Source of the DNA: a virus
Strand: one strand, 5' to 3'
IMG/VR virus record: IMGVR_UViG_3300013131_000249
Coordinates: 1 to 23,384 of that record
Length of the DNA stretch: 23,384 nt
Below the pieces are notes generated by a model, which searched no databases, was not told the DNA's origin, and worked only from the letters and a program-made list of their open reading frames with translations. A program made the position numbers and the translations under genes. Shown here one piece after another: positions 8,997 through 23,384 of the stretch (position 1 is its first letter; every line of letters starts with the position of its first letter).

Positions 8997-9025
8997 TCGT
9001 TAGTTCTGAATATGAAGCACTTAGG

Positions 9026-9060
9026 GGGGCGGGATCGAAAGATCTCGCCCCTTCTTATTT
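9026..9060 (+). terminator. Rho-independent terminator after gene 23
   Basis: An 11-base stem (9026-9036 with 9041-9051, one G-T pair) closes on a GAAA tetraloop and is followed by the T-rich tract TTCTTATTT. It lies 29 bases after the capsid gene stop. The GC-rich stem and stable tetraloop make this the clearest terminator in the window. It would separate head gene transcription from the following tail and recombination genes. Confidence 0.9.
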
Positions 9061-9062
9061 CT

Positions 9063-9069
9063 CTAAATA
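9063..9069 (+). promoter_or_regulatory. Putative late promoter box CTAAATA directly before a start codon
   Basis: The box follows the gene 23 terminator and ends 5 bases before the ATG at 9075. With the usual spacing of T4 late promoters, transcription would begin at or within a base or two of the ATG, giving an mRNA with no leader. It restarts transcription for the tube-paralog operon. Confidence 0.6.
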
Positions 9070-9074
9070 CTCAT

Positions 9075-9614
9075 ATGTCAAAAGACTACGGGATACCTCC
9101 ACAGGCAAACAATAGACTTACAGGACAACCTACACAAACAAACCTGACGAATGCCACAAATTTCAGGTTCATGTTGCCGAAGGTTCCAAATTCTGTGTAT
9201 TTTTGTCAATCCGTTTCTTTTCCCAACTTTTCCTGTCCACATATTGCCATACGAACAGGCAGAGGTGCTGCCCTGAAAGTTCCTGGCACCGAAGTAAGTC
9301 ATGGTGACCTAAGTATGACCTACATCGTCAATGAGGATATGAGTAATTACAGAGAAATGCAAGGATGGTTCACGAAAATGTCAGCATTTACTGACGGATT
9401 CAATGGACTTCTCAGTACCCGCGATTGGATGAGTGAACAAGGTCAATTGATGATACTTACAAATCGAAAAACACCAGTGGTCAGAATAACATTCAGCGGA
9501 CTATTCCCTACAAATCTATCCGCGATAGAATTTGACAATACAGATACAGAGGGTAAGGTCACGGTGGCAACTGCAACTTTAGGCTTCACATATTACACGA
9601 TGGAGGCCATATGA
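9075..9614 (+). CDS. Tail-tube-fold virion protein, first of a tandem pair (gp19/gp54-like)
   Basis: A 179-residue protein with the layout of the T4 tube family: 'NFRFMLPKVPNSVYFCQSVSF', 'ALKVPGTEVSHGDLSMTYIVNEDMSNY' over the middle strands, and 'PVVRITFSGLFPTNLSAIEF' near the C-terminus. It is paralogous to the next gene (shared 'KDYG(I/L)P', 'NEDMSNY/NSDLSNY', 'GLFPTNLS/GIFPTELS'). The start at 9075 is preferred because 'MSKDYGIP' matches the start of that paralog. An upstream in-frame ATG at 9012 would begin in front of the terminator hairpin and encode it. No ribosome site precedes 9075, and the late box ends only 5 bases upstream. Probable role: a tube initiator, baseplate-proximal or minor tube protein; T4 gp54 has this fold. 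Exact assignment is uncertain. Confidence 0.75.
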   Translation: MSKDYGIPPQANNRLTGQPTQTNLTNATNFRFMLPKVPNSVYFCQSVSFPNFSCPHIAIRTGRGAALKVPGTEVSHGDLSMTYIVNEDMSNYREMQGWFTKMSAFTDGFNGLLSTRDWMSEQGQLMILTNRKTPVVRITFSGLFPTNLSAIEFDNTDTEGKVTVATATLGFTYYTMEAI

Positions 9615-10159
9615 GTAATTTTGCACCCAAAGACTATGGTTTACCTACAAGTCTGTTGAACGGGATTCTTCAACAGAATCCTGCAAATAAAGACCTATTT
9701 CTACAGACTAATTTCACTATCAGCATCAAACGATGTCCATCCTTTTCTTACTTTACACAGACTGTTTCCCTATCCGAACTGGGCGGGGATCCTATGGAAG
9801 CAGAATATGCTATAGGTCCTAAAGTCAAACTACCTACAGTTGCTGCTGTATTCAAGGACTTTACGGTAAAGTTTCTAGTAAACAGTGATCTTAGTAACTA
9901 TTACGAGATAATCAAATGGATGCGTGAGGGTACTCCCTACAGAGACCTATCAGAAATCAGACCATTGAACGAAGTTTGGTCAGAGGCGTTCATTATAGTC
10001 TCTTCTAATAAGAAGAAGCCTTTACTAAAACTGACATTCCGTGGCATATTCCCAACAGAACTTTCAGGTTTGGAATTCAAAGCGACAGAAACTGACACAT
10101 CCCCTTTGACTGCTACAGTCAAATTTACCATCACTCAAACTGTAGTGGAGACACTTTGA
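9611..10159 (+). CDS. Tail-tube-fold virion protein, second of a tandem pair
   Basis: The 182-residue paralog of the preceding gene; the ATGA overlap and GGAGG site (9602-9606) indicate translational coupling. Shared marks are 'KDYGLP' at the start, 'CPSFSYFTQTVSL', 'FLVNSDLSNYYEIIKWM', 'KPLLKLTFRGIFPTELSGLEF' in pieces, and a final beta strand. The pattern fits the T4 gp19-type domain without the Ala/Gly insertion seen in the main tube protein of this window. The two copies have diverged widely, so they probably have separate places in the tail rather than being recent duplicates. Candidate roles are tube initiator, tube terminator-proximal ring or baseplate component. Confidence 0.72.
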   Translation: MSNFAPKDYGLPTSLLNGILQQNPANKDLFLQTNFTISIKRCPSFSYFTQTVSLSELGGDPMEAEYAIGPKVKLPTVAAVFKDFTVKFLVNSDLSNYYEIIKWMREGTPYRDLSEIRPLNEVWSEAFIIVSSNKKKPLLKLTFRGIFPTELSGLEFKATETDTSPLTATVKFTITQTVVETL

Positions 10160-11688: not shown

Positions 11689-11712
11689 GAGTTTACGCGA
11701 AAACTCAGTATT

Positions 11713-11743
11713 CAGACAGCCTCTAAATAAGAGGCATTGTCTG
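11713..11743 (+). promoter_or_regulatory. Inverted repeat with embedded late promoter box at the uvsW start
   Basis: Two 6-base arms on each side (11713-11718 with 11738-11743, and 11719-11724 with 11730-11735, with a 2-base bulge) fold around the loop AAATA. The late box CTAAATA (11723-11729) spans the inner arm and loop. The TTG start codon of uvsW (11737) is in the outer right arm. In read-through RNA from uvsY the hairpin could act as a weak terminator or hide the uvsW start. RNA initiated at the late box would lack the left arms. Confidence 0.6.
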
Positions 11744-13239
11744 TTATTAGGGTACATTATCACAACTCTGTTCATGTTCGCGTTTCTTGCGAGGCAGGTA
11801 TCGCCCGTGAAATTCAAGAGTTTTTCACATTCGATGTTCCTGGTGCGCGGTTTATGCCATCTTACCGCAACAAAATGTGGGATGGCAAAATGCGATTATT
11901 CACACCATTCAATCCTCTGCTATACACAGGACTCCTTGATCACTTGGCAGAGTTTGCAAGCGGTAGAGAATATACACTTGAAGTTTCTTCTGAGTTGGTA
12001 GACAAAGGAGACAAATTATCAAAGGATGAGTTGTTATCCTTTATGTCATCTCTGTCTCTGACCGCAGCAGGCAAGGCAATAACACCTCATGATCATCAGT
12101 TAGATGCTATTTTGAGAGCGATCAATAGAGATAGATGTCTTTTGCTATCTCCTACGGCAAGCGGCAAAAGCCTTGTCATCTATTCTCTCATTCGATACTG
12201 GCTAGAATCAATACAGCCACATCGAAAGATTCTTGTGATCGTTCCTACGATCTCTCTTGTATCTCAGATGATATCAGATTTCAAAGAATATAGCCATGCA
12301 AATGGATGGAATGTCGATGAAAATGTACATGGTATATTCGGAGGCGAAGAGAAAATCACAGACTGTAGAGTGATTGTATCAACATGGCAATCGATTTATA
12401 AACTACCCAAGGGGTATTTTGATCAGTTTGAGGCAGTCATAGGCGACGAGGCTCATCTGTTCAAGGCACAGAGTCTATCAGGGATCATGGGAAAATTAGT
12501 AGATTGTCCATATCGTATTGCATTGACGGGAACTCTTGATGGTACAAAAACTCACAAACTAGTGATCGAAGGTCTATTTGGTCCCACACTGAGAGTTACA
12601 ACCACCAAGGACCTCATAGAGAAAAATCTACTGTCCACATTAGAAATCGATTGTCTTCTATTGACCTATCCCGAACAAGATTGCAAACTGATGAAGGGAA
12701 TGGAATACAAAGACGAGATCGATTGGTTGGTCACTGATCCTAGACGAAACGCTTTGATCACAAAGGTAGCATCGTCCGTAAAAGGAAATACGCTCGTATT
12801 GTTTCAATTCGTAGAAAAGCATGGTAAACCTCTGTACGAAATGATCAAGAAAAGCACAGACAGAACCGTGTTCTATGTCAGCGGAGAAACAGAGGCAGAG
12901 ATAAGAGAAGAGATTAGAACTATCACAGAGAAAGAGGACAATGCGATAATAGTAGCCTCTTTCGGTACATTCAGTACGGGCATCAATATACGAAGCCTAA
13001 AGAACATCATATTTGCATCTCCAAGTAAGAGCAGAATTCGTGTACTTCAAAGTATTGGTAGACAACTAAGAAAGTCAGACCGCAAGGACAAAGCAAGACT
13101 TTATGACTTCGCAGATGATCTACACTGGAAGAGTAGCAAGAATCACACGCTGAAACACTTCATCGAAAGAGTGCGTATATACTCAGAGGAACAGTTTCCG
13201 TATCGCATGATAAAACTCCCCATAAAGGATTCAAGATGA
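11737..13239 (+). CDS. uvsW: UvsW-like RNA-DNA/branched DNA helicase
   Basis: Superfamily 2 helicase that unwinds R-loops and branched DNA, switching T4 from origin-dependent to recombination-dependent replication. Length is 500 residues, close to T4 UvsW. Motif I 'SPTASGKS' has Lys144; motif II is 'DEAH' at 237-240; motif III-like 'ALTGTLDG' follows; 'QSIGRQLRKSDRK' is motif VI. The N-terminal domain also matches T4: 'VHYHNSVHVRVSCE' against 'VHFHDFSHVRIDCE', and 'MWDGKMRL'. The frame offers no ATG at the start. TTG at 11737 is the best fit to the T4 N-terminus, with AGAGG only 2 bases upstream; ATT at 11746 is the alternative. A late promoter at this spot agrees with late expression of uvsW in T4. 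Confidence 0.93.
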   Translation: MSVIRVHYHNSVHVRVSCEAGIAREIQEFFTFDVPGARFMPSYRNKMWDGKMRLFTPFNPLLYTGLLDHLAEFASGREYTLEVSSELVDKGDKLSKDELLSFMSSLSLTAAGKAITPHDHQLDAILRAINRDRCLLLSPTASGKSLVIYSLIRYWLESIQPHRKILVIVPTISLVSQMISDFKEYSHANGWNVDENVHGIFGGEEKITDCRVIVSTWQSIYKLPKGYFDQFEAVIGDEAHLFKAQSLSGIMGKLVDCPYRIALTGTLDGTKTHKLVIEGLFGPTLRVTTTKDLIEKNLLSTLEIDCLLLTYPEQDCKLMKGMEYKDEIDWLVTDPRRNALITKVASSVKGNTLVLFQFVEKHGKPLYEMIKKSTDRTVFYVSGETEAEIREEIRTITEKEDNAIIVASFGTFSTGINIRSLKNIIFASPSKSRIRVLQSIGRQLRKSDRKDKARLYDFADDLHWKSSKNHTLKHFIERVRIYSEEQFPYRMIKLPIKDSR

Positions 13240-13697
13240 AACCACTAGGTCATATGATGATAAAACTGACAACAGGTGAATTGGTAGTAGCCAGTGTTAC
13301 CGTGTTGGCAAACGACTATCTACTTGAAAATCCGATGGCAGTGATGTTCATCCCTCAAACTAATAAAAAGGGAGAGATCATCAATACGAACATTCTATTC
13401 AATCAGTGGATAGAGTTCTCAGTTGATACTCATCTAAAAATACCCAAGAGCAGTGTGATTACGATTGCCACACCAGACAGTCAAATGGTTCAGGACTATC
13501 TACTATCGGTAAAGAATCAGGAAATCCAATGGATGCAGACTGAATTCAATACTCTGTTTGATAGTCTGGAAGCACAGGAAATACTGCAAAACGATCAGAA
13601 TCCTAATGACAAAGAAGTCGATATGGAGTATAATGATCCAAATCAACTTCCCTTAGATGAACCTGATGAATCAGAGGATACAGAAGACACTAATTAA
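13236..13697 (+). CDS. Small Sm/SH3-like phage protein with acidic tail
   Basis: The ATG overlaps the uvsW stop (ATGA), indicating coupling. Residues 1-95 follow a pattern shared with the 106-residue protein at 20707: 'IKLTTGELVVASV', then '(E/D)NP', a 'P...G.I' stretch, and 'I...TPDSQMVQDYL'. I recognise this small beta-barrel-like type from T4-like marine phages, where it is usually of unknown function. The last 40 residues are strongly acidic ('DPNQLPLDEPDESEDTEDTN'), which is absent from the paralog and could mimic nucleic acid or bind a basic partner. No catalytic motif is visible. Confidence 0.6.
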   Translation: MKPLGHMMIKLTTGELVVASVTVLANDYLLENPMAVMFIPQTNKKGEIINTNILFNQWIEFSVDTHLKIPKSSVITIATPDSQMVQDYLLSVKNQEIQWMQTEFNTLFDSLEAQEILQNDQNPNDKEVDMEYNDPNQLPLDEPDESEDTEDTN

Positions 13698-13772: not shown

Positions 13773-14339
13773 TTGGCAGAAAGTCGAGATTTCGTGAGTA
13801 GTCATTATATTGACAACAAGACATTTCTGAAGGAAATTATTGCCTACAAGAAAACAGTACGGTCTGCAAAATCTAAAAACCTACCCAAGCCAGGTGTCAG
13901 TAACTACATCGGACAGTGCTTTCTTGATATTGCAAACAATTTAGCAAAGAAACCAAATTTTGCAAATTACCCATTCAAGGAAGAGATGATCGGAGACGGG
14001 ATTGAAAACTGCATTCAATATACCGATAACTTCGATCCTAAAAAGTCATCAAATCCATTCGCTTTCTTCACGCAGATTATTTACTACGCATTTATCCGTC
14101 GTATACAGAAGGAGAAGAAGCAACTGTATGTGAAAATGCGTTGTTTTGAAGAGAACGACCCAACAGGTAGATTTAGAAATTGGCTGAAGGACTCGTTTGA
14201 GGAGACAGAAAACCCCTTCCAAGAAATTCTTGCTCTTGAAGAGAAAAATGCAGCGACCCCGACCCCCAAAGCAACTAAAAAGAAGGGCAAGAAACCAAAT
14301 ACAGAGGCTCTAGATGTCTTCATGGAGGACAAGTCTTGA
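13773..14339 (+). CDS. 55: Late-transcription sigma factor (gp55-like)
   Basis: Sigma-family subunit that directs host RNA polymerase to late promoters with a TATAAATA-like box. Similarity to T4 gp55 (185 residues): 'HYIDNKTFLKEIIAYKK' against 'NYVNNKELLQAIIDWK', 'KEEMIGDGIENCIQYTDNFD' against '[20 protein letters not shown]', 'NPFAFFTQIIYYAFIRRIQKEKK' in pieces against '[23 protein letters not shown]'. Length is up to 188 residues. The C-terminal tail is Lys-rich and ends 'EALDVFMEDKS', which may correspond to the T4 clamp-binding tail 'SLDFLYE'. No ATG is available. TTG at 13773 or GTG at 13794 must serve as start, and neither has a good ribosome site. TTG lies in a 5-base inverted repeat (13764-13768 with 13774-13778). 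Confidence 0.92.
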   Translation: MAESRDFVSSHYIDNKTFLKEIIAYKKTVRSAKSKNLPKPGVSNYIGQCFLDIANNLAKKPNFANYPFKEEMIGDGIENCIQYTDNFDPKKSSNPFAFFTQIIYYAFIRRIQKEKKQLYVKMRCFEENDPTGRFRNWLKDSFEETENPFQEILALEEKNAATPTPKATKKKGKKPNTEALDVFMEDKS

Positions 14340-15376
14340 AGATTGCAATCGTAGCAGATACACATTTTGGGGCTAGGAATGATTCGCCCGTGTTTCTGCA
14401 CCATTTCTGTAAGTTCTTTGATGATGTCTTTTTCCCGACATTAGACGAACGAGGAATTACTCAGGTCATTCACTTGGGTGACCTCATGGACAGAAGGAAG
14501 TTTGTAAATTTCGGAACTTTGAATGCCACCCGAAAGCATTTTGTTGAACCTCTTCTAAACAGAGGCATAGTTCCTTACATCATTTTGGGAAACCATGATG
14601 TGTATTTTCGAAACACTAACTCTGTAAATTGTGTTAGGGAATTGTTCGATACAGAGATGAATCTGATCGATGTTCCACGGGTTGTTAATTTTGACGGGTT
14701 GCCGATTGCTATGTTGCCTTGGATCAACAAAGAAAACGAGGCAGATTCCCTTAATTTTGTGAATACCTGTAAATCACCTATCTTGATGGGACATCTTGAA
14801 CTAATGGGGTACGAGGTTTTACGAGGTGTTGAATCCCACGAAGGCATGGATTCGGCCCCATTCAGTCGCTTTGAGGCTGTTTATAGCGGACACTACCACT
14901 GTAAGCATACCAAGGGAAATATCCATTACCTAGGAACTCCATATCAGATTACTTTTGGTGATCTTTATGAACCGAAGGGATTTCATATCCTCGACACTCA
15001 AACAAGGGAAATTGAGTATGTAAGAAACCCACTAAGCATGTTCAACTGTATTGAGTATGATGATACCAAAAACGACTATTTTACTGAATTGCCTGAATTT
15101 GGTACATACGGCAACACCTTTGTTCGCGTGATTGTGAAGAACAAAAACAATCCTCTCATGTTCGACCGATTCATCGATAAACTAAACGAATCTAAGGTTT
15201 ATGGGGTGAATCTGTTACAGGACAAGGATCTTGGCATTCAGGGAGGCGAAGAAATTGATGCATCCAAAGACACTCTAAGTCTAATCAACCTTGAGATAGA
15301 CAACCTGAAGATTGAGAATCCTGTAAAACTCAAGCAAATCCTAAGAGATTTGTACAATGAGGCTCTTTTTAGTTGA
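14336..15376 (+). CDS. 47: Recombination nuclease subunit gp47 (Mre11/SbcD-like)
   Basis: Metallophosphoesterase subunit of the gp46/gp47 complex that resects DNA ends for recombination-dependent replication. Metal-binding motifs are visible: Asp8 and His10 in 'IVADTHFG', Asp49 in 'HLGDLMDRRK', Asn86-His87 in 'LGNHDVY', His153 in 'MGHLEL', and His186/His188 in 'SGHYHCK'. Length 346 matches T4 gp47 (339). The start is TTG at 14336: it overlaps the gene 55 stop (TTGA), GGAGG lies at 14324-14328 with ideal spacing, and the protein then begins 'MKIAIVADTHFG' like T4 'MKILNLGDWHLG'. Tight coupling to 55 and separation from 46 are notable. Confidence 0.95.
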   Translation: MKIAIVADTHFGARNDSPVFLHHFCKFFDDVFFPTLDERGITQVIHLGDLMDRRKFVNFGTLNATRKHFVEPLLNRGIVPYIILGNHDVYFRNTNSVNCVRELFDTEMNLIDVPRVVNFDGLPIAMLPWINKENEADSLNFVNTCKSPILMGHLELMGYEVLRGVESHEGMDSAPFSRFEAVYSGHYHCKHTKGNIHYLGTPYQITFGDLYEPKGFHILDTQTREIEYVRNPLSMFNCIEYDDTKNDYFTELPEFGTYGNTFVRVIVKNKNNPLMFDRFIDKLNESKVYGVNLLQDKDLGIQGGEEIDASKDTLSLINLEIDNLKIENPVKLKQILRDLYNEALFS

Positions 15377-15380
15377 TCTT

Positions 15381-15387
15381 CTAAATA
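15381..15387 (+). promoter_or_regulatory. Putative late promoter box CTAAATA before the giant gene
   Basis: The box lies 4 bases after the gene 47 stop and 30 bases before the next ATG. It marks the giant gene as a separate late transcription unit. Its last three bases form the beginning of the left arm of the start-codon hairpin at 15385-15419. Confidence 0.65.
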
Positions 15388-15419
15388 CCCGTATCACCAC
15401 ACATCGGAGGCACGGGTAT
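15385..15419 (+). promoter_or_regulatory. Start-codon hairpin overlapping the late promoter
   Basis: ATACCCGT (15385-15392) pairs perfectly with ACGGGTAT (15412-15419), an 8-base stem. The GGAGG ribosome site (15406-15410) is in the 19-base loop and the first two bases of the ATG (15418-15420) are in the stem. RNA reading through from gene 47 would carry both arms. RNA starting from the CTAAATA box, expected around 15393, would lack the left arm and be free for translation. T4 genes such as e and soc use this arrangement to block translation of early transcripts. Confidence 0.6.
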
Positions 15420-18400
15420 GACCATTTATGGGTTTGATCAAGGATATTACTTCTACGCTAAAAAGACAAGTGATGCTGATTTTACAGTAGGAGAGATCCT
15501 AGACCTACAGAACGCAGACGATAGTCGCGCAAATGCCAATCTGATGTACTGGTACCTAACAGCCATAGAGGATATCGAAGGCTCAAATGTAAAGAAGTAC
15601 AAGATTTACCCTATACGCAAGAGTGGAGACAATACTGGAAACTATGTGATGTATCCTGATTTCCGTTTGCTTTCCTCCATGTTTCTTGTTGGATTAGCAA
15701 GTGGAGCAAAGGCGCAATTGAGAGGTCCTTACCTAGGAGGAAGGATTCTCACGGATACAGAAGCGTCGGGTAATCTTATCGTCACAATAGGAGAATCTGA
15801 CTACGAACCCACTCGCCATGATTTGTTCACATATCAAGATGATACTAAGGTGTTTGTCACAACACAGGGAGATCCGTTCAATGCTAACTTCATGAGCGAT
15901 ACTCCTTTCTCCGCAGAAACTTTGAACTACTCTTGTGTACCGATTCTAGACCGACAAGAATTGGCTGTCCCTTATGTCGGAGTTTTTACGGAAAAAAATA
16001 GATGCGGTGGTGCTTTGCTTACACCATGGCATGTGGTGACTGCAAATCACTACCCTATAAACGCAGTTGAAACACAACTTACTTTTTATAATCAAGCAAG
16101 TGATACTAGAATAACGAAAGGTATTTCTGGATCTTTGCCTGTTTCTTGGTATGACATATATGCAAACCTAGGAATAACTTGGCTAAAGAATAATGCAGGA
16201 GCAACCAATGAAGAAAAATATCTCTGGACGCATCAAACGCTAACGACTTACTATAGTCAGAATTACGGAAGCGACATAGCCAATAGATTTCTTGAGGGAC
16301 TAAATGACCTTCGCGTATTGCTATTGAACTCTGCCGTGTCTTTGGCAGTAAAACCTGCCAAGTTGCCTAAGTTTACAGATGACATTTATTCCAAATTGGG
16401 TTATGGAATAATAATCGACCAAAATCAAAGAGGGTATCTCACACCTCTCAAAGACAATGTTGCAAATCAATCGGTGAGACCCACAGGCGGTTCTTCTGTT
16501 CTTTCGCAATATGCATCCCAATCTACCCTTCCGAATGGAACAAGATATGGAGATATATTCAGAAACATAGTGAGTGGCGATTCATCATCTCTCGTATTGT
16601 CATCTTATGCAGGAGAGACGATATTTTTAGGAACAATCAATGGTGCTAGTAGCGTTTTAGAACCTCAGATCAATGTTGTTGACGGTTTACCGACAACAGA
16701 TGTTCCTCTAGGAAAGTCAAATCCTGCGGGATCTACCTACGAGAATGGTTGTAAACTCTGGATGTACCTAGGTATTGAAATTCCTGTAACAGTGTTATCC
16801 GATGAGTTCCCTAATCCATGGTATCAAAATCAAGATCTAGTCGATAACCCTGCATCTTACCCACCGTTTATACTTGATCTGTACAATCAACCATATCTAA
16901 CAGATTTCCCTGATGTTCTTCGCAATCCATTTGCGATGATTCAAACTTACATCAATAATTGGTCAAGATCACAAATAGCAGAATACCCATCAACTGATGT
17001 TGAATTTGATGTGATTGATATTGTTGATGATTGTCCTTGGTTTCCGTGTCCTGATTGGAAATACTACTATCGAACTAGTGTAAATCAATCGGTTGTCGCT
17101 GCTGATTTGTTTCAATATGACAGAGCGCCAAGAGAAAGGGTAAATCTAGGTACAAGACGGTCTCCTATCACTACTACAAGAATATTTGATTACTCAACTA
17201 ATCCTGGTTCTCAGAGAGCATCGACAAGAGTAAGTCCTTACTACGCTCTTGTCAGAATCAATGACGAAGATGCTACTGGATTTTGGAATGGTTGGGGGGA
17301 CAAAGAAGTTGCTCTTTACAGAGGAAATCCTGCAACAGGTACTCGCGCATACGCATGGGAGAGTAATCCTGCTGTTCCTAGTAGATCAAGTCCGTGGCAC
17401 AATATCATATATGAACACACCATTGGTCTGTATTCTTGGGGTTTCCGTTCGTTCATGCTTCATCTACCTTATAGTTCTTTGAGCATAGGATCTGCACTCA
17501 CCTATGAAAACATGGTGAATGAATACGATGGAGATTATTACGGAAGTCCTTATTATGCAGATTATCATTCAACTTCAGATCTAACTCCTCAAATAACGAT
17601 GGGGGTAAACTATCCATCAAGATGGAAGGGGTTTTTCGAATCACTTGAGGCTCTTGCTTTAGGACAAATGTATCCTGAAGGCAAAGAACCGATTTCAGAA
17701 CCGACCAGCGTAATGATTTATTTGCCATCTCTTGTTGCACCAAACACAACAGCAAGAACATCATCTCAATCTGATTATGAACGATTGGGTGAGACAGAAT
17801 GGCTGAGAAGAATAGATTCTCTTGCTAATCGGTTTATCAATCTGCATAACAAGGTAAAAGATAGATCTAGATTTGCGGTTGCTTTCGATAGCGTATCCAA
17901 CAGCCATACTCCAAATACATCAAGTGATGTGTTTGAACTTGGAGATTGGAGATTACTCAATACTTTGAAACAAGCAGGTGTAAATGTATATGTTACTCCG
18001 AGACCAAATGCTAACAGCGAATGGGCTGATTTTGATTTATGGAGCGATGAATACGATTTGTTTGTTGATGCTGCAACAGAGGGCAAATCTACAGATAAGA
18101 GTCTGAATAATGTGATGCGTGGAGCGGTAAGAAGATTCCCAATACCTAGCAATCTCGATCCGTATGGAACCCTATCAACTGTAAAAGGCTCACCATTATC
18201 ATCAACAGAAAATCAAAGAAATACTCCACACTATGCATTGTTTTCGCTATACGCTCTTTCTGATCACTACAGAGAAGACAATAGATGGGAAGGTTACAAG
18301 TTCATAAGGCCAAGTGAAATCATGGTAGATCCTGTGATATTCACTGACGCACCTCTAGTCTCCATAGACTCAAATGGAAAGTATCTCAGAATACCAGCAC

Positions 18401-20673
18401 AGGCTTTTCATTCAAGAACCGCATACGATGAAGCCAGGATAGAAAATGCATACTGTGAAGGTAGAGGTCAAACCATATCTGGTTATAGTGCAGGTTATTG
18501 GTTCCCCGACACAATCACAGAGTGGGATGTGGGAGTTAGAAGAAGTAGTATTTCGGAATTTGTAGACATGATAGAAAATTTCACCGATTCGGCTGGACCG
18601 ATAAACACTTCAAGTCAAAACCAATATCCTAATGATACTTTATCTACCAAGATCATTCCTTCCGTACTAAAAGAGCCTTTCCGTCCTGACCTGTATACAG
18701 TCGTGACTATTCCTGCTCTGGGCGATTTAAATAACGATAACACTATTGATGCCAGGGATCTCGCAATAGTCCTGCAAAACTTTGCTTCGATGACTGCATC
18801 CGGTGATGTTAACGGTAGTGGCTATGTAGATGCAGCGGATTTGTCTATTATTCTTAGCAATTGGGGACAAACTGAAGAACAAGTGACAACCTGTACGGCA
18901 CAAGTTATAAGTGACCCTGTTCATGATCCAAGTAAGTCTGCGAATTATGAAATATTTGGTGTGATTCATAAAGCCGGAACACAACCTAATGATATTCCAT
19001 TTGATGTAGAATCTATCGTTTCTACTGTATTTCCTGGACTTGCTGCAAATGGTGACACTTCTTCATCTTATAATCGTGCGGGAATAACAGCAGGTCTAAG
19101 CGAAGATAGAATGAATGCATTTGCAGAAGAACTTCTGAAAATACCTTCTGGTAGAAGAGTCATAGATCCTCGATATTGGGGTTGGGGTACTATGTCGTTA
19201 GGATTAAGAGAATATGAGGATTATTACAAAAATACCACTGACAAAATTACATATTCTCAAAATGATTCAAGTTGCGTCCCGCCCGATACATCGGATCCAA
19301 ATACAGCCGACTTTGTAGGTCCCTGGCAAGAAAACAATGCTAATGATACTGAGCAATCGTGGAGAAATTTCTTAATTCAATGTTCAAATTCTGGATTAAC
19401 ATTTGACTATATTTCAGATGATGTTGGTATTATGGAAAATGGTGATGGGTTGTTGATGAATACTATAACCAATATCTTTACTGCTTTTTACGGACCTCAA
19501 TTTGATCCCGTTACAGGTGACCCTATTGTACATCCATGGATGTCGAAACCAGATGCAAGGAGATTTGCAGCGATAGTTAGAGATTCAAGATTTACAAGTC
19601 AAACAAACACATATAACGGCAGAACATTTGCTGATAATCTAGTTTACAAGTATAAACAATCAGTTCAGTCTGATGATCCTCAGATTACTCATCTAACCTT
19701 AATGAGTCCTTTTATTTGTCCTCAAAATTATGTGGATTTTGTTAATATTGATTATGTTACCTTAGATTTAGAACAATCTTGGGATGGTTGTGTTAGAGAC
19801 ATATTTGTCGGTGAGAGAGAGAACAAATACAGAAAAGTACTTGAAGAGTTTCCCGATCATGTACATACAAAATACGCCTCTTATCAGTTTTATCCATCTC
19901 AGTTCGAAGATGCTAGATTTGTATTGAACAACAATGGAAAAACAAGATTGATACCTTGGCCTTCAACATGGACCATGTCGCCAGTATGCTACGCAGAACC
20001 AACAGATTATTTCTCAGAGAATTTCGGAATTAAAACAAGTGCAACCACAGAAGAAGAAAGAAAAACTTGGTTTCATAGAAACTCTGTGTCACCAAATGAC
20101 TTATTCATACCTTCTAGGCAATGGATAGGATTTTTGCAGGATATAGCCCGTGTAAGAATGTGTGCAAAAAACACACCAAACGGAAGTAATGTAGAATTGG
20201 CACCATGGATCATACCACCAGGAGGATTTCTTGCATGGGCGCTCGGTGAAGGTCCTGCTCAGTATATAAAAGAGCACATGTTTCATATATGTTTACATGG
20301 AACTCTGTATTTTAATGTGTGGGCTAATACGGGATATGGACATAGATTGAAATATGTTGACTCTGTTTTGAAGGAGTGGAAAACTATCTCAGGTAATTCA
20401 AGATGTCAGCCTGAAGACAGAAAGTTGGTCGATTTGGTAACTGCATGTACAAAGACACTTATTAGTGGCGGAAAACTGATGAGTGGAGTGAACTCAGGAT
20501 TATATCTGTGGAGAATAACTATACCTCCACATCTATTCAATGAAAATCAATCAACAAATCTTATTCCTAGTAGCGAATTAGGTAGTCGCGGACCTCTTGT
20601 TGTACCACAAGGTGAAGTAGGTTTGTGGATTCTGGATGCTATAAGCACTCCCCCTCAATATGAAGTAGGATAA
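15418..20673 (+). CDS. Giant secreted-enzyme-like protein: trypsin-like protease domain plus dockerin/EF-hand doublet
   Basis: A 1751-residue protein, by far the longest in the window, with GGAGG before its ATG and its own late promoter. No named phage family is recognised. Residues 173-410 carry the signs of a chymotrypsin-fold serine protease: 'CGGALLTPWHVVTANHY' (His211), 'GLNDLRVLLL' (Asp297) and 'SGDSSSLV' followed by 'GETIFLGTING' (Ser389). Residues 1103-1150 hold two Ca2+-type loops (D-x-N-x-D-x-x-x-D-x-x-D) typical of a dockerin. Between and after them are large aromatic-rich regions, for example 'RFAVAFDSVSN', 'LLNTLKQAGVNVYVTPRP' and 'LTFDYISDDVG'. These might be alpha/beta-barrel enzyme domains, but that is a guess. 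No coiled coil or fibre repeat is visible and there is no signal peptide. Arginine is mostly AGA and the second half is AT-rich, unlike gene 23. A virion-attached host-surface enzyme is the simplest idea. Confidence 0.8.
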   Translation: MTIYGFDQGYYFYAKKTSDADFTVGEILDLQNADDSRANANLMYWYLTAIEDIEGSNVKKYKIYPIRKSGDNTGNYVMYPDFRLLSSMFLVGLASGAKAQLRGPYLGGRILTDTEASGNLIVTIGESDYEPTRHDLFTYQDDTKVFVTTQGDPFNANFMSDTPFSAETLNYSCVPILDRQELAVPYVGVFTEKNRCGGALLTPWHVVTANHYPINAVETQLTFYNQASDTRITKGISGSLPVSWYDIYANLGITWLKNNAGATNEEKYLWTHQTLTTYYSQNYGSDIANRFLEGLNDLRVLLLNSAVSLAVKPAKLPKFTDDIYSKLGYGIIIDQNQRGYLTPLKDNVANQSVRPTGGSSVLSQYASQSTLPNGTRYGDIFRNIVSGDSSSLVLSSYAGETIFLGTINGASSVLEPQINVVDGLPTTDVPLGKSNPAGSTYENGCKLWMYLGIEIPVTVLSDEFPNPWYQNQDLVDNPASYPPFILDLYNQPYLTDFPDVLRNPFAMIQTYINNWSRSQIAEYPSTDVEFDVIDIVDDCPWFPCPDWKYYYRTSVNQSVVAADLFQYDRAPRERVNLGTRRSPITTTRIFDYSTNPGSQRASTRVSPYYALVRINDEDATGFWNGWGDKEVALYRGNPATGTRAYAWESNPAVPSRSSPWHNIIYEHTIGLYSWGFRSFMLHLPYSSLSIGSALTYENMVNEYDGDYYGSPYYADYHSTSDLTPQITMGVNYPSRWKGFFESLEALALGQMYPEGKEPISEPTSVMIYLPSLVAPNTTARTSSQSDYERLGETEWLRRIDSLANRFINLHNKVKDRSRFAVAFDSVSNSHTPNTSSDVFELGDWRLLNTLKQAGVNVYVTPRPNANSEWADFDLWSDEYDLFVDAATEGKSTDKSLNNVMRGAVRRFPIPSNLDPYGTLSTVKGSPLSSTENQRNTPHYALFSLYALSDHYREDNRWEGYKFIRPSEIMVDPVIFTDAPLVSIDSNGKYLRIPAQAFHSRTAYDEARIENAYCEGRGQTISGYSAGYWFPDTITEWDVGVRRSSISEFVDMIENFTDSAGPINTSSQNQYPNDTLSTKIIPSVLKEPFRPDLYTVVTIPALGDLNNDNTIDARDLAIVLQNFASMTASGDVNGSGYVDAADLSIILSNWGQTEEQVTTCTAQVISDPVHDPSKSANYEIFGVIHKAGTQPNDIPFDVESIVSTVFPGLAANGDTSSSYNRAGITAGLSEDRMNAFAEELLKIPSGRRVIDPRYWGWGTMSLGLREYEDYYKNTTDKITYSQNDSSCVPPDTSDPNTADFVGPWQENNANDTEQSWRNFLIQCSNSGLTFDYISDDVGIMENGDGLLMNTITNIFTAFYGPQFDPVTGDPIVHPWMSKPDARRFAAIVRDSRFTSQTNTYNGRTFADNLVYKYKQSVQSDDPQITHLTLMSPFICPQNYVDFVNIDYVTLDLEQSWDGCVRDIFVGERENKYRKVLEEFPDHVHTKYASYQFYPSQFEDARFVLNNNGKTRLIPWPSTWTMSPVCYAEPTDYFSENFGIKTSATTEEERKTWFHRNSVSPNDLFIPSRQWIGFLQDIARVRMCAKNTPNGSNVELAPWIIPPGGFLAWALGEGPAQYIKEHMFHICLHGTLYFNVWANTGYGHRLKYVDSVLKEWKTISGNSRCQPEDRKLVDLVTACTKTLISGGKLMSGVNSGLYLWRITIPPHLFNENQSTNLIPSSELGSRGPLVVPQGEVGLWILDAISTPPQYEVG
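15934..16647 (+). other. Chymotrypsin-like serine protease domain in the giant protein
   Basis: Approximate domain limits (residues 173-410). The His-Asp-Ser order and spacing (His211, Asp297, Ser389) fit the trypsin family. The local motifs are variants: 'TANHY' for the usual 'TAAHC' and 'GDSSS' for 'GDSGG'. 'FLGTING' after the serine occupies the place of the usual 'LVGI.S' strand. Confidence 0.7.
18724..18867 (+). other. Dockerin-type doublet of Ca2+-binding loops in the giant protein
   Basis: First loop: Asp1103, Asn1105, Asp1107, Thr1109, Asp1111, Asp1114. Second loop: Asp1130, Asn1132, Ser1134, Tyr1136, Asp1138, Asp1141. Each is followed by a short aliphatic helix, the second ending 'ILSNWGQ'. 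The form 'GDVNGSGYVDAADLSIIL' is like the dockerin-like repeats that are very numerous in Planctomycetes. Confidence 0.85.
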
Positions 20674-20706: not shown

Positions 20707-21027
20707 ATGGATATCAAGATCGTAAGACTGTCTAGTGGCGAAGAAATCATCTGCAACTATAAAGAAGAAAATGAAGGGCTGATTGTAATCAATGACCCAG
20801 GAATTATTATTCCTGTTGGTCAAGGTGAGATTGGTATCATGCCTTGGCTTGCTTATGCAAAGACCAAAGATGGTATTGTTGTGGATAAGCGTTTTGTCGT
20901 ATTTGTCGTAGAGCCGCAAACTGATTTTGCAAATCAATACAAAACACAGTTTGTTCCTGCAATGTCAGGTCTAGTCACTCCACCGCAGAAGAAAGTTCTC
21001 ACCCCATCACTCAAACTAGCCGACTAA
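20707..21027 (+). CDS. Small Sm/SH3-like phage protein
   Basis: A 106-residue protein with GGAGG 5 bases before its ATG, 33 bases after the giant gene stop. 'VRLSSGEEIICNY', 'VINDPGIIIPV', 'GIMPWLAYAK', 'VVFVVEPQTDFANQY' and 'SGLVTPP' are hallmarks of a small beta-barrel-like protein common in T4-like marine phages. It is related to the N-terminal 95 residues of the protein at 13236 but lacks the acidic tail. Function is unknown. Its last 17 bases overlap the end of gene 46 on the other strand, so the two messages are complementary at their 3' ends. Confidence 0.65.
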   Translation: MDIKIVRLSSGEEIICNYKEENEGLIVINDPGIIIPVGQGEIGIMPWLAYAKTKDGIVVDKRFVVFVVEPQTDFANQYKTQFVPAMSGLVTPPQKKVLTPSLKLAD

Positions 21028-22958: not shown

Positions 22959-23384
22959 ATGTATTCAACTCTTTCAGATCTGAGACAAACTCTAGAGGAA
23001 AAACTCCTTATCGTAGGAAATAATAAAAAGTACGGTCAGGTTGTCTTTCTTGCGGGTGGAGCCGGTAGCGGAAAAGGATTCGCAATTTCAAATTTGATCG
23101 GAATGGGAAATCCTCCAAAGATATTTGATCCTGATGCCATGAAGACAGCATTCATTCGGTGGAATACTCAAGCGATGAAGCATCCAGAAATCGCTGCAAT
23201 TTGCAATCCCGATGGCAAACCAACCGAAGACAAACCGTGCATGAAAGACCCAAAGGTCACCGAGAAACTACACGGTGTACTCTTAAGTCTAGGATGGGAT
23301 GACAAGAGTATCAATCAATTTCTCATGACCAAGAGATCTCCTGATCTGTTGCCCAATATCGTATTCGACAGAACTTTCAGAAAC
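22959..23384 (+). CDS. P-loop kinase-like protein (zeta-toxin/NMP-kinase type), cut by window end
   Basis: The 142 residues seen start at the ATG at 22959 (AAGGAA lies at 22945-22950) and the frame is open to the window end, so the protein is incomplete. 'VVFLAGGAGSGKGFAISNL' (28-46) is a Walker A loop after a beta strand. Gly follows the Lys, as in nucleotide kinases (G-K-G-T), though here Phe replaces Thr. 'KIFDPDAMK' could be the acidic strand and substrate region, and 'LPNIVFDRTFRN' a second strand with the Asp after it. This type resembles zeta-toxin/AAA-33 kinases found in many T4-like phages. Likely a small-molecule or polynucleotide kinase; substrate is unknown. Confidence 0.7.
   Translation, partial: MYSTLSDLRQTLEEKLLIVGNNKKYGQVVFLAGGAGSGKGFAISNLIGMGNPPKIFDPDAMKTAFIRWNTQAMKHPEIAAICNPDGKPTEDKPCMKDPKVTEKLHGVLLSLGWDDKSINQFLMTKRSPDLLPNIVFDRTFRN

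Follow-up and report, generated by a model that had tools for sequence, protein, structure and literature searches.

Enzymes that phages carry on their tails to breach cell surfaces are known mostly for acting on sugars or peptidoglycan, and dockerins are typical of secreted bacterial enzymes. A trypsin fold within a large extracellular assembly has been described for the umbrella particles of Streptomyces, in which the trypsin-like domain of UmbA, lacking a complete triad, holds a partner in its cleft and does not cut it; a trypsin fold can thus serve purely as a connector (PMC11062931). Among T4-like phages, the cyanophages P-HM1 and P-HM2 carry genes for S8 peptidases, T4-GC518 (PMC3037559).

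We analyzed a 23,384-base virus record with a T4-like late block, referred to below as the window, in which one gene encodes a protein of 1751 residues that contains a candidate trypsin-like domain and a dockerin. The protein resembles S1 peptidases in its near-canonical His block (CGGALLTPWHVVTANHY), its Asp strand (NDLRVLLL) and its GDS motif, in the His-Asp-Ser order of these elements, and in having compact relatives that are modeled as trypsin folds. It differs from them in that it scores below the Pfam cut-off, has about 40 additional residues inserted between His and Asp, has GDSSS in place of the usual GDSGG, and carries the domain within a 1751-residue phage chain. Like the S8 peptidases of P-HM1 and P-HM2, it would be a peptidase other than the maturation enzyme, and both occur in T4-like phages of one broad group; those enzymes, however, belong to the subtilisin rather than the trypsin family, and the passage describing them reports neither a dockerin nor a related C-terminal module (PMC3037559).

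A giant gene between gp47 and an inverted gp46

The late block of the window comprises genes for sheath, tube, portal, gp21, gp22, gp23 and tail-tube-like proteins, uvsY, uvsW, gp55, gp47, the giant gene, a gene for a small protein, and gp46. The capsid protein is closest to those of the Pelagibacter phages Mosig and HTVC008M (61%), and in a gp47 tree the window clusters with L001, L013 and L012 (the L002 contig) as a deep uncultured lineage. The features of the giant gene and its surroundings are as follows.

14336–15376, + strand: gp47, SbcD-like nuclease subunit (phrog_100, E 2.1e-95), the 5' neighbor that marks the insertion site
15381–15387, + strand: CTAAATA, candidate gp55-type late promoter element, from its position and its conservation in L013
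15406–15410, + strand: ribosome-binding site GGAGG, from the sequence
15418–20673, + strand: giant open reading frame, 1751 aa, with homologues in L001, L002 and L013
15418–15792, + strand: N-terminal region (residues 1–125), found only in the lineage of the window, L001, L002 and L013
16804–18708, + strand: middle region (residues 463–1097), 92% identical to L001
21011–22729, – strand: gp46, SbcC-like (phrog_77, E 7.6e-164), inverted relative to gp47

The frame at 15418–20673, given in an earlier note on this DNA as a protein of 1751 residues, comprises 1751 codons without internal stops. Of the 73 records that have gp46 in the vicinity of gp47, 71 carry both genes on one strand, with gp46 following gp47, in most cases immediately; a giant gene between gp47 and an inverted gp46 occurs only in the window and L001 among these 73. 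The nearest homologues of the giant protein are those of L002 (99%, partial), L001 (73%) and L013 (32%, partial). No signal peptide is evident at its N-terminus, and its middle region has no family match. A likeness between this middle region and a 1030-aa protein of G055 comes down to one short motif and is not claimed here.

Outside its own lineage the protein appears isolated. It matches no PHROG, virion protein families included, the six cultured relatives encode no protein resembling it, and the named phages searched gave no match for the whole protein (E 0.01), for the trypsin region (E 10) or for the C-terminal module of L001 (E 10). No relative turned up in pattern scans of 84,980 bacterial and archaeal genomes; scans with exact patterns reach close relatives only, so that an origin in bacteria is still conceivable.

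The gene is likely expressed late, as the earlier note had proposed; support for this part of the proposal is modest and comes from the CTAAATA element. The heptamer precedes the start codon by 36 bases and lies at a similar distance in L013, where it is kept although the surrounding DNA has diverged; it is identical to the proposed late promoter of the T4-like phage Aeh1 (PMC1524935), and the late promoter of S-PM2 has the form NATAAATA (PMC2984593). Because CTAAATA is not enriched across the whole window (6 seen vs 3.2 expected), the promoter assignment draws only on position and conservation. An RNA hairpin at the start of the giant gene scored no better than in shuffled sequences.

Several other features of the window were recorded. 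Upstream of uvsW, positions 11700–11760 form a strong predicted RNA hairpin (z –6.0), with CTAAATA between GCCTC and GAGGC arms. Two adjacent genes (9012–9614 and 9611–10159) both encode relatives of the tail tube protein (phrog_45). The small proteins encoded at 13236–13697 and 20707–21027, one of which has a weak Sm-like match, belong to the same PHROG group (527/431/483) and flank the gp55-gp47-giant gene stretch. Positions 22959–23384 contain the beginning of a gene that is cut off by the window end; it weakly matches a zeta-toxin-like P-loop (E 0.017). The earlier note had not included the dockerin domain, the modular C-terminus or the site of insertion between gp47 and gp46.

A candidate trypsin-like domain

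The elements of the putative protease domain are listed below.

15934–16677, + strand: trypsin-like domain (PA clan, S1-like), residues 173–420, from Pfam, PDB and the model of the related family
16048–16050, + strand: His211, candidate catalytic His, aligned with the trypsin His and with the invariant His99 of relatives
16306–16308, + strand: Asp297, candidate catalytic Asp and the least certain, located on the strand most like the trypsin Asp strand
16582–16584, + strand: Ser389, candidate nucleophile in GDSSS, aligned with the invariant Ser223 (GDSGSP) of relatives

The three residues that had been proposed as a complete triad are present at these positions and do not vary in the homologues with 73% and 99% identity. 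Their order is that of trypsin; the proposed trypsin-like spacing holds only loosely. The distance between Asp and Ser (92 residues) is close to that in trypsin (93), whereas His and Asp are 86 rather than 45 residues apart, which implies the insertion of about 40 residues mentioned above. The strand after the GDSSS motif resembles that following the trypsin serine.

A Pfam search, which had been suggested as a check, matched the His block (residues 181–214) to the Trypsin profile with E 0.0028, and its 18.0 bits fell short of the family cut-off of 20.6 bits. When residues 173–227 were searched alone against the PDB, chymotrypsinogen C ranked first (E 0.0066) and trypsins made up most of the entries after it; of the 36 matches, the majority were S1 peptidases or an S1 homologue. 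The same search with segments 280–330 and 370–425 alone returned no trypsin. For the Asp, we compared the protein with the corresponding strands of bovine trypsin and chymotrypsin. Nowhere in the protein is the trypsin Asp strand matched better than by the strand containing Asp297 (NDLRVLLLNSAVSL). Its score was reached by 3 of 2000 shuffled versions of the region when trypsin served as reference and by 18 of 2000 when chymotrypsin did.

Taken jointly, the His, Asp and Ser blocks of the related family described below gave the window domain a score above all of 1000 shuffles, and the profile of these relatives scored 18.5 bits against it, with a maximum of 10.9 bits in 2000 shuffles. The Asp block of this family selected residues 271–279 of the giant protein, with the pick at residue 271–272 and not 297, and Asp297 is therefore the least certain member of the triad. 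In an hhalign comparison of the window domain with the family only the His half aligned (probability 37%). Residues 173–420 plausibly form a trypsin-fold domain with the candidate complete triad His211-Asp297-Ser389, in which the assignments of His211 and Ser389 are supported and that of Asp297 has moderate support.

A compact phage family modeled as a trypsin fold

In structure prediction, the other check suggested for the domain, residues 140–462, modeled by AF2 from an alignment of three near-identical sequences, reached a pLDDT of only 30, which we count neither for nor against the fold; a trypsin fold was predicted for compact relatives. The first of these, a 358-aa trypsin-like and dockerin protein of G003, was found through the records behind related contigs. 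A scan of viral contigs with this protein identified 20 loci, the most distant at 32% identity; 19 of their records were searched again, and all matched. These compact proteins consist of the trypsin-like domain and a dockerin, and no cargo is attached. With the window they have in common P-x-x-H-D near the domain start, the catalytic H-Y, and GDS-x-S, and their triad (His99, Asp137 and Ser223) is invariant in eight aligned members.

The AF2 model of the compact family, for which the alignment included window rows, has a mean pLDDT of 61, rising to around 90 in the core blocks, and a pTM of 0.69. Its best Foldseek matches were trypsins (E 1.2e-7, probability 1.00), and 653 PDB chains matched at E ≤ 0.001, the matches listed being S1 peptidases or their homologues. 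A second structure aligner gave Z-scores up to 13.9, with Z ≥ 8 for 998 of 1000 chains. In the predicted structure, the compact phage family folds as a trypsin, and the homology of the window domain to this family is supported by sequence comparison. The earlier suggestion of a chymotrypsin-fold domain in the giant protein is supported to that extent.

These fold comparisons also bring in another explanation. The trypsin fold might have been retained for binding or assembly, with protease activity absent or not needed. UmbA provides the precedent, a trypsin fold that forms part of a large particle binding to target cells: its trypsin-like domains bind UmbB and are inactive (PMC11062931), and chain 8w20_C of the Umb1 particle ranks among the top fold matches of the compact family (Z 13.7). 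The GDSSS motif and the uncertain Asp of the giant protein would fit such a role, and the L013 homologue has no His in the aligned region, with its contig ending soon after. Since this partial homologue lacks the catalytic His, proteolysis cannot be assumed, and a role in binding without catalysis has to be taken seriously as a rival. The UmbA triad, however, is incomplete and no activity was detected (PMC11062931), whereas all three candidate residues are kept in the window, L001 and L002, the His being missing only in the partial L013. In addition, the triad of the compact family does not vary even at 36% identity, which is hard to explain without catalysis. We consider a purely binding function rather unlikely.

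The dockerin and the C-terminal module

Two further elements complete the giant protein.

18718–18852, + strand: dockerin type I domain, residues 1101–1145 (PF00404, E 2.7e-7), with two calcium-loop repeats
18865–20670, + strand: C-terminal module, residues 1150–1751, 42% identical between relatives and common to giant proteins in tail clusters of other phages

The dockerin scores 31.1 bits against a Pfam cut-off of 22.9 and, with its two calcium-loop repeats, is like other type I dockerins; unlike them, it belongs to a probable virion protein and not to a cellulosome enzyme, and no cohesin was found in the near relatives L001, L002 and L013. Across 21 related records there was no cohesin (PF00963) above the cut-off, and three near-identical records had a weak match. 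In these three (G052, G053 and G054), a trypsin-dockerin gene (L180:8606–9703 in G054) is followed by a gene (L180:10080–11330) whose 416-aa product has an apparent signal peptide and matches cohesin with 10.1 bits, below the cut-off (E 0.04 in G054 and 0.0125 in the near-identical G052); the two genes possibly encode a dockerin-cohesin pair of phage origin. At another locus, the gene (L104:9326–10081) after the compact trypsin-dockerin gene (L104:8001–9077) encodes a 251-aa protein with an apparent signal peptide, a C-terminal Phe and an outer-membrane beta-barrel-like character, and with no Pfam match. Dockerin repeats also occur in a protein resembling T4-like fibers (L181:8322–9179, L170), among the tail-fiber genes of G003, and are fused to subtilisin-family (S8) proteases with signal-peptide-like N-termini in G004 (L099:4584–5996) and G038 (L103:139–1653), which belong to the same T4-like group.

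Some of these observations would fit a captured bacterial secreted protease with its dockerin, released by the phage and acting after lysis or in the periplasm: the dockerin is of a kind typical of bacterial secreted enzymes, the subtilisin-dockerin proteins of related phages begin like secreted proteins, and the gene after one trypsin-dockerin gene encodes a protein with an apparent signal peptide and weak similarity to cohesin. The giant protein itself has no evident signal peptide, the exact-pattern scan of 84,980 bacterial and archaeal genomes yielded no relative, and the kin of its C-terminal module sit within tail clusters. A released enzyme of host origin is, on this evidence, very improbable.

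Between the window and L001, identity is about 90% or above over the first 1097 residues and about 42% from the dockerin onward, a drop that marks a modular boundary. A conserved N-terminal part joined to a diverged C-terminal part is a pattern seen in many receptor-binding proteins. The module following the dockerin recurs in several architectures. G055 encodes it in a 2923-aa protein (L179:3581–12352), located between baseplate wedge genes and containing RCC1 repeats as well as a beta-helix, which interrupts the common module; directly downstream are a gene for the 1030-aa protein, which starts with a trypsin-like domain, and then a baseplate wedge gene. G012 encodes a 664-aa protein (L184:3919–5910) in which a PAAR domain precedes the module, upstream of gp6. 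In G001 and G003 the corresponding proteins comprise 1208 and 1446 aa, respectively, the latter with a tail-fiber match. Tail families in PHROGs are carried or adjoined by these C-module kin only and not by the giant gene, which lies between gp47 and gp46, off the baseplate cluster, unlike the arrangement in G055.

The giant protein is placed on the tail mainly because the kin of its C-terminal module and the dockerin-repeat protein neighbor tail genes; judged from this sharing of modules, it is most likely a tail component of the virion. In having a C-terminal module that is found behind a PAAR domain and in the tail-cluster giants of its relatives, it is comparable to tail-spike depolymerases and PAAR-tip proteins. 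Known depolymerases are mainly active on sugars, whereas the giant protein has a protease-type domain.

The separability of the N- and C-terminal parts, which correspond to separate genes in G055, and the location of the domain close to one terminus of so long a multidomain chain, which we take as a common layout for autoprocessing, raise the alternative that the protease acts on phage proteins, processing the giant chain itself or cleaving virion proteins during assembly. The phage already has its own head maturation protease, gp21 (phrog_207), and the compact relatives carry no attached cargo. Such a role appears improbable.

Proposed role of the giant protein

The reading we prefer, to which we give about an even chance, is that the giant protein belongs to the tail or baseplate and uses its trypsin-like domain to cleave a protein of the host surface or of the virion. 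The gene product, made late, would be built into the phage particle and come into contact with the host envelope. There its trypsin-like domain could cut a protein on the host surface or on the particle itself, as a proteolytic analogue of tail-spike depolymerases. The dockerin would act as a calcium-dependent connector between the front part and the C-terminal module, which would form the distal or tip part of the tail component. In this scheme we infer late expression, a place in the virion, catalysis and substrate, whereas the domain content, the kinship with a trypsin-fold phage family, the modular C-terminus and the insertion between gp47 and gp46 are computed results. The targets that the earlier note had suggested, a host surface layer, the protein itself or other virion proteins, are candidates. 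It is also conceivable, though doubtful, that certain T4-like and other phages display trypsin-family proteases on their tails, assembled through dockerins, and that infection by them includes proteolysis of a host surface protein by an S1-type enzyme of the virion.

No trypsin-dockerin tail protein was found in the named phages, in PHROGs or in the open papers searched. What would be new here is a tail-borne enzyme that combines this protease family with this connector. Whether dockerins serve as calcium-dependent connectors within phage virions is a testable question. The trypsin-fold domain recurs in about 20 uncultured phage records and is absent from PHROGs and the named phages searched. 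The smaller or rearranged versions of the giant protein in at least 19 related phage sequences suggest that some phages may cut proteins, and not only sugars, on host surfaces. If true, this would add a protein-cutting entry step to the phage repertoire and would hint at hosts with protein coats.
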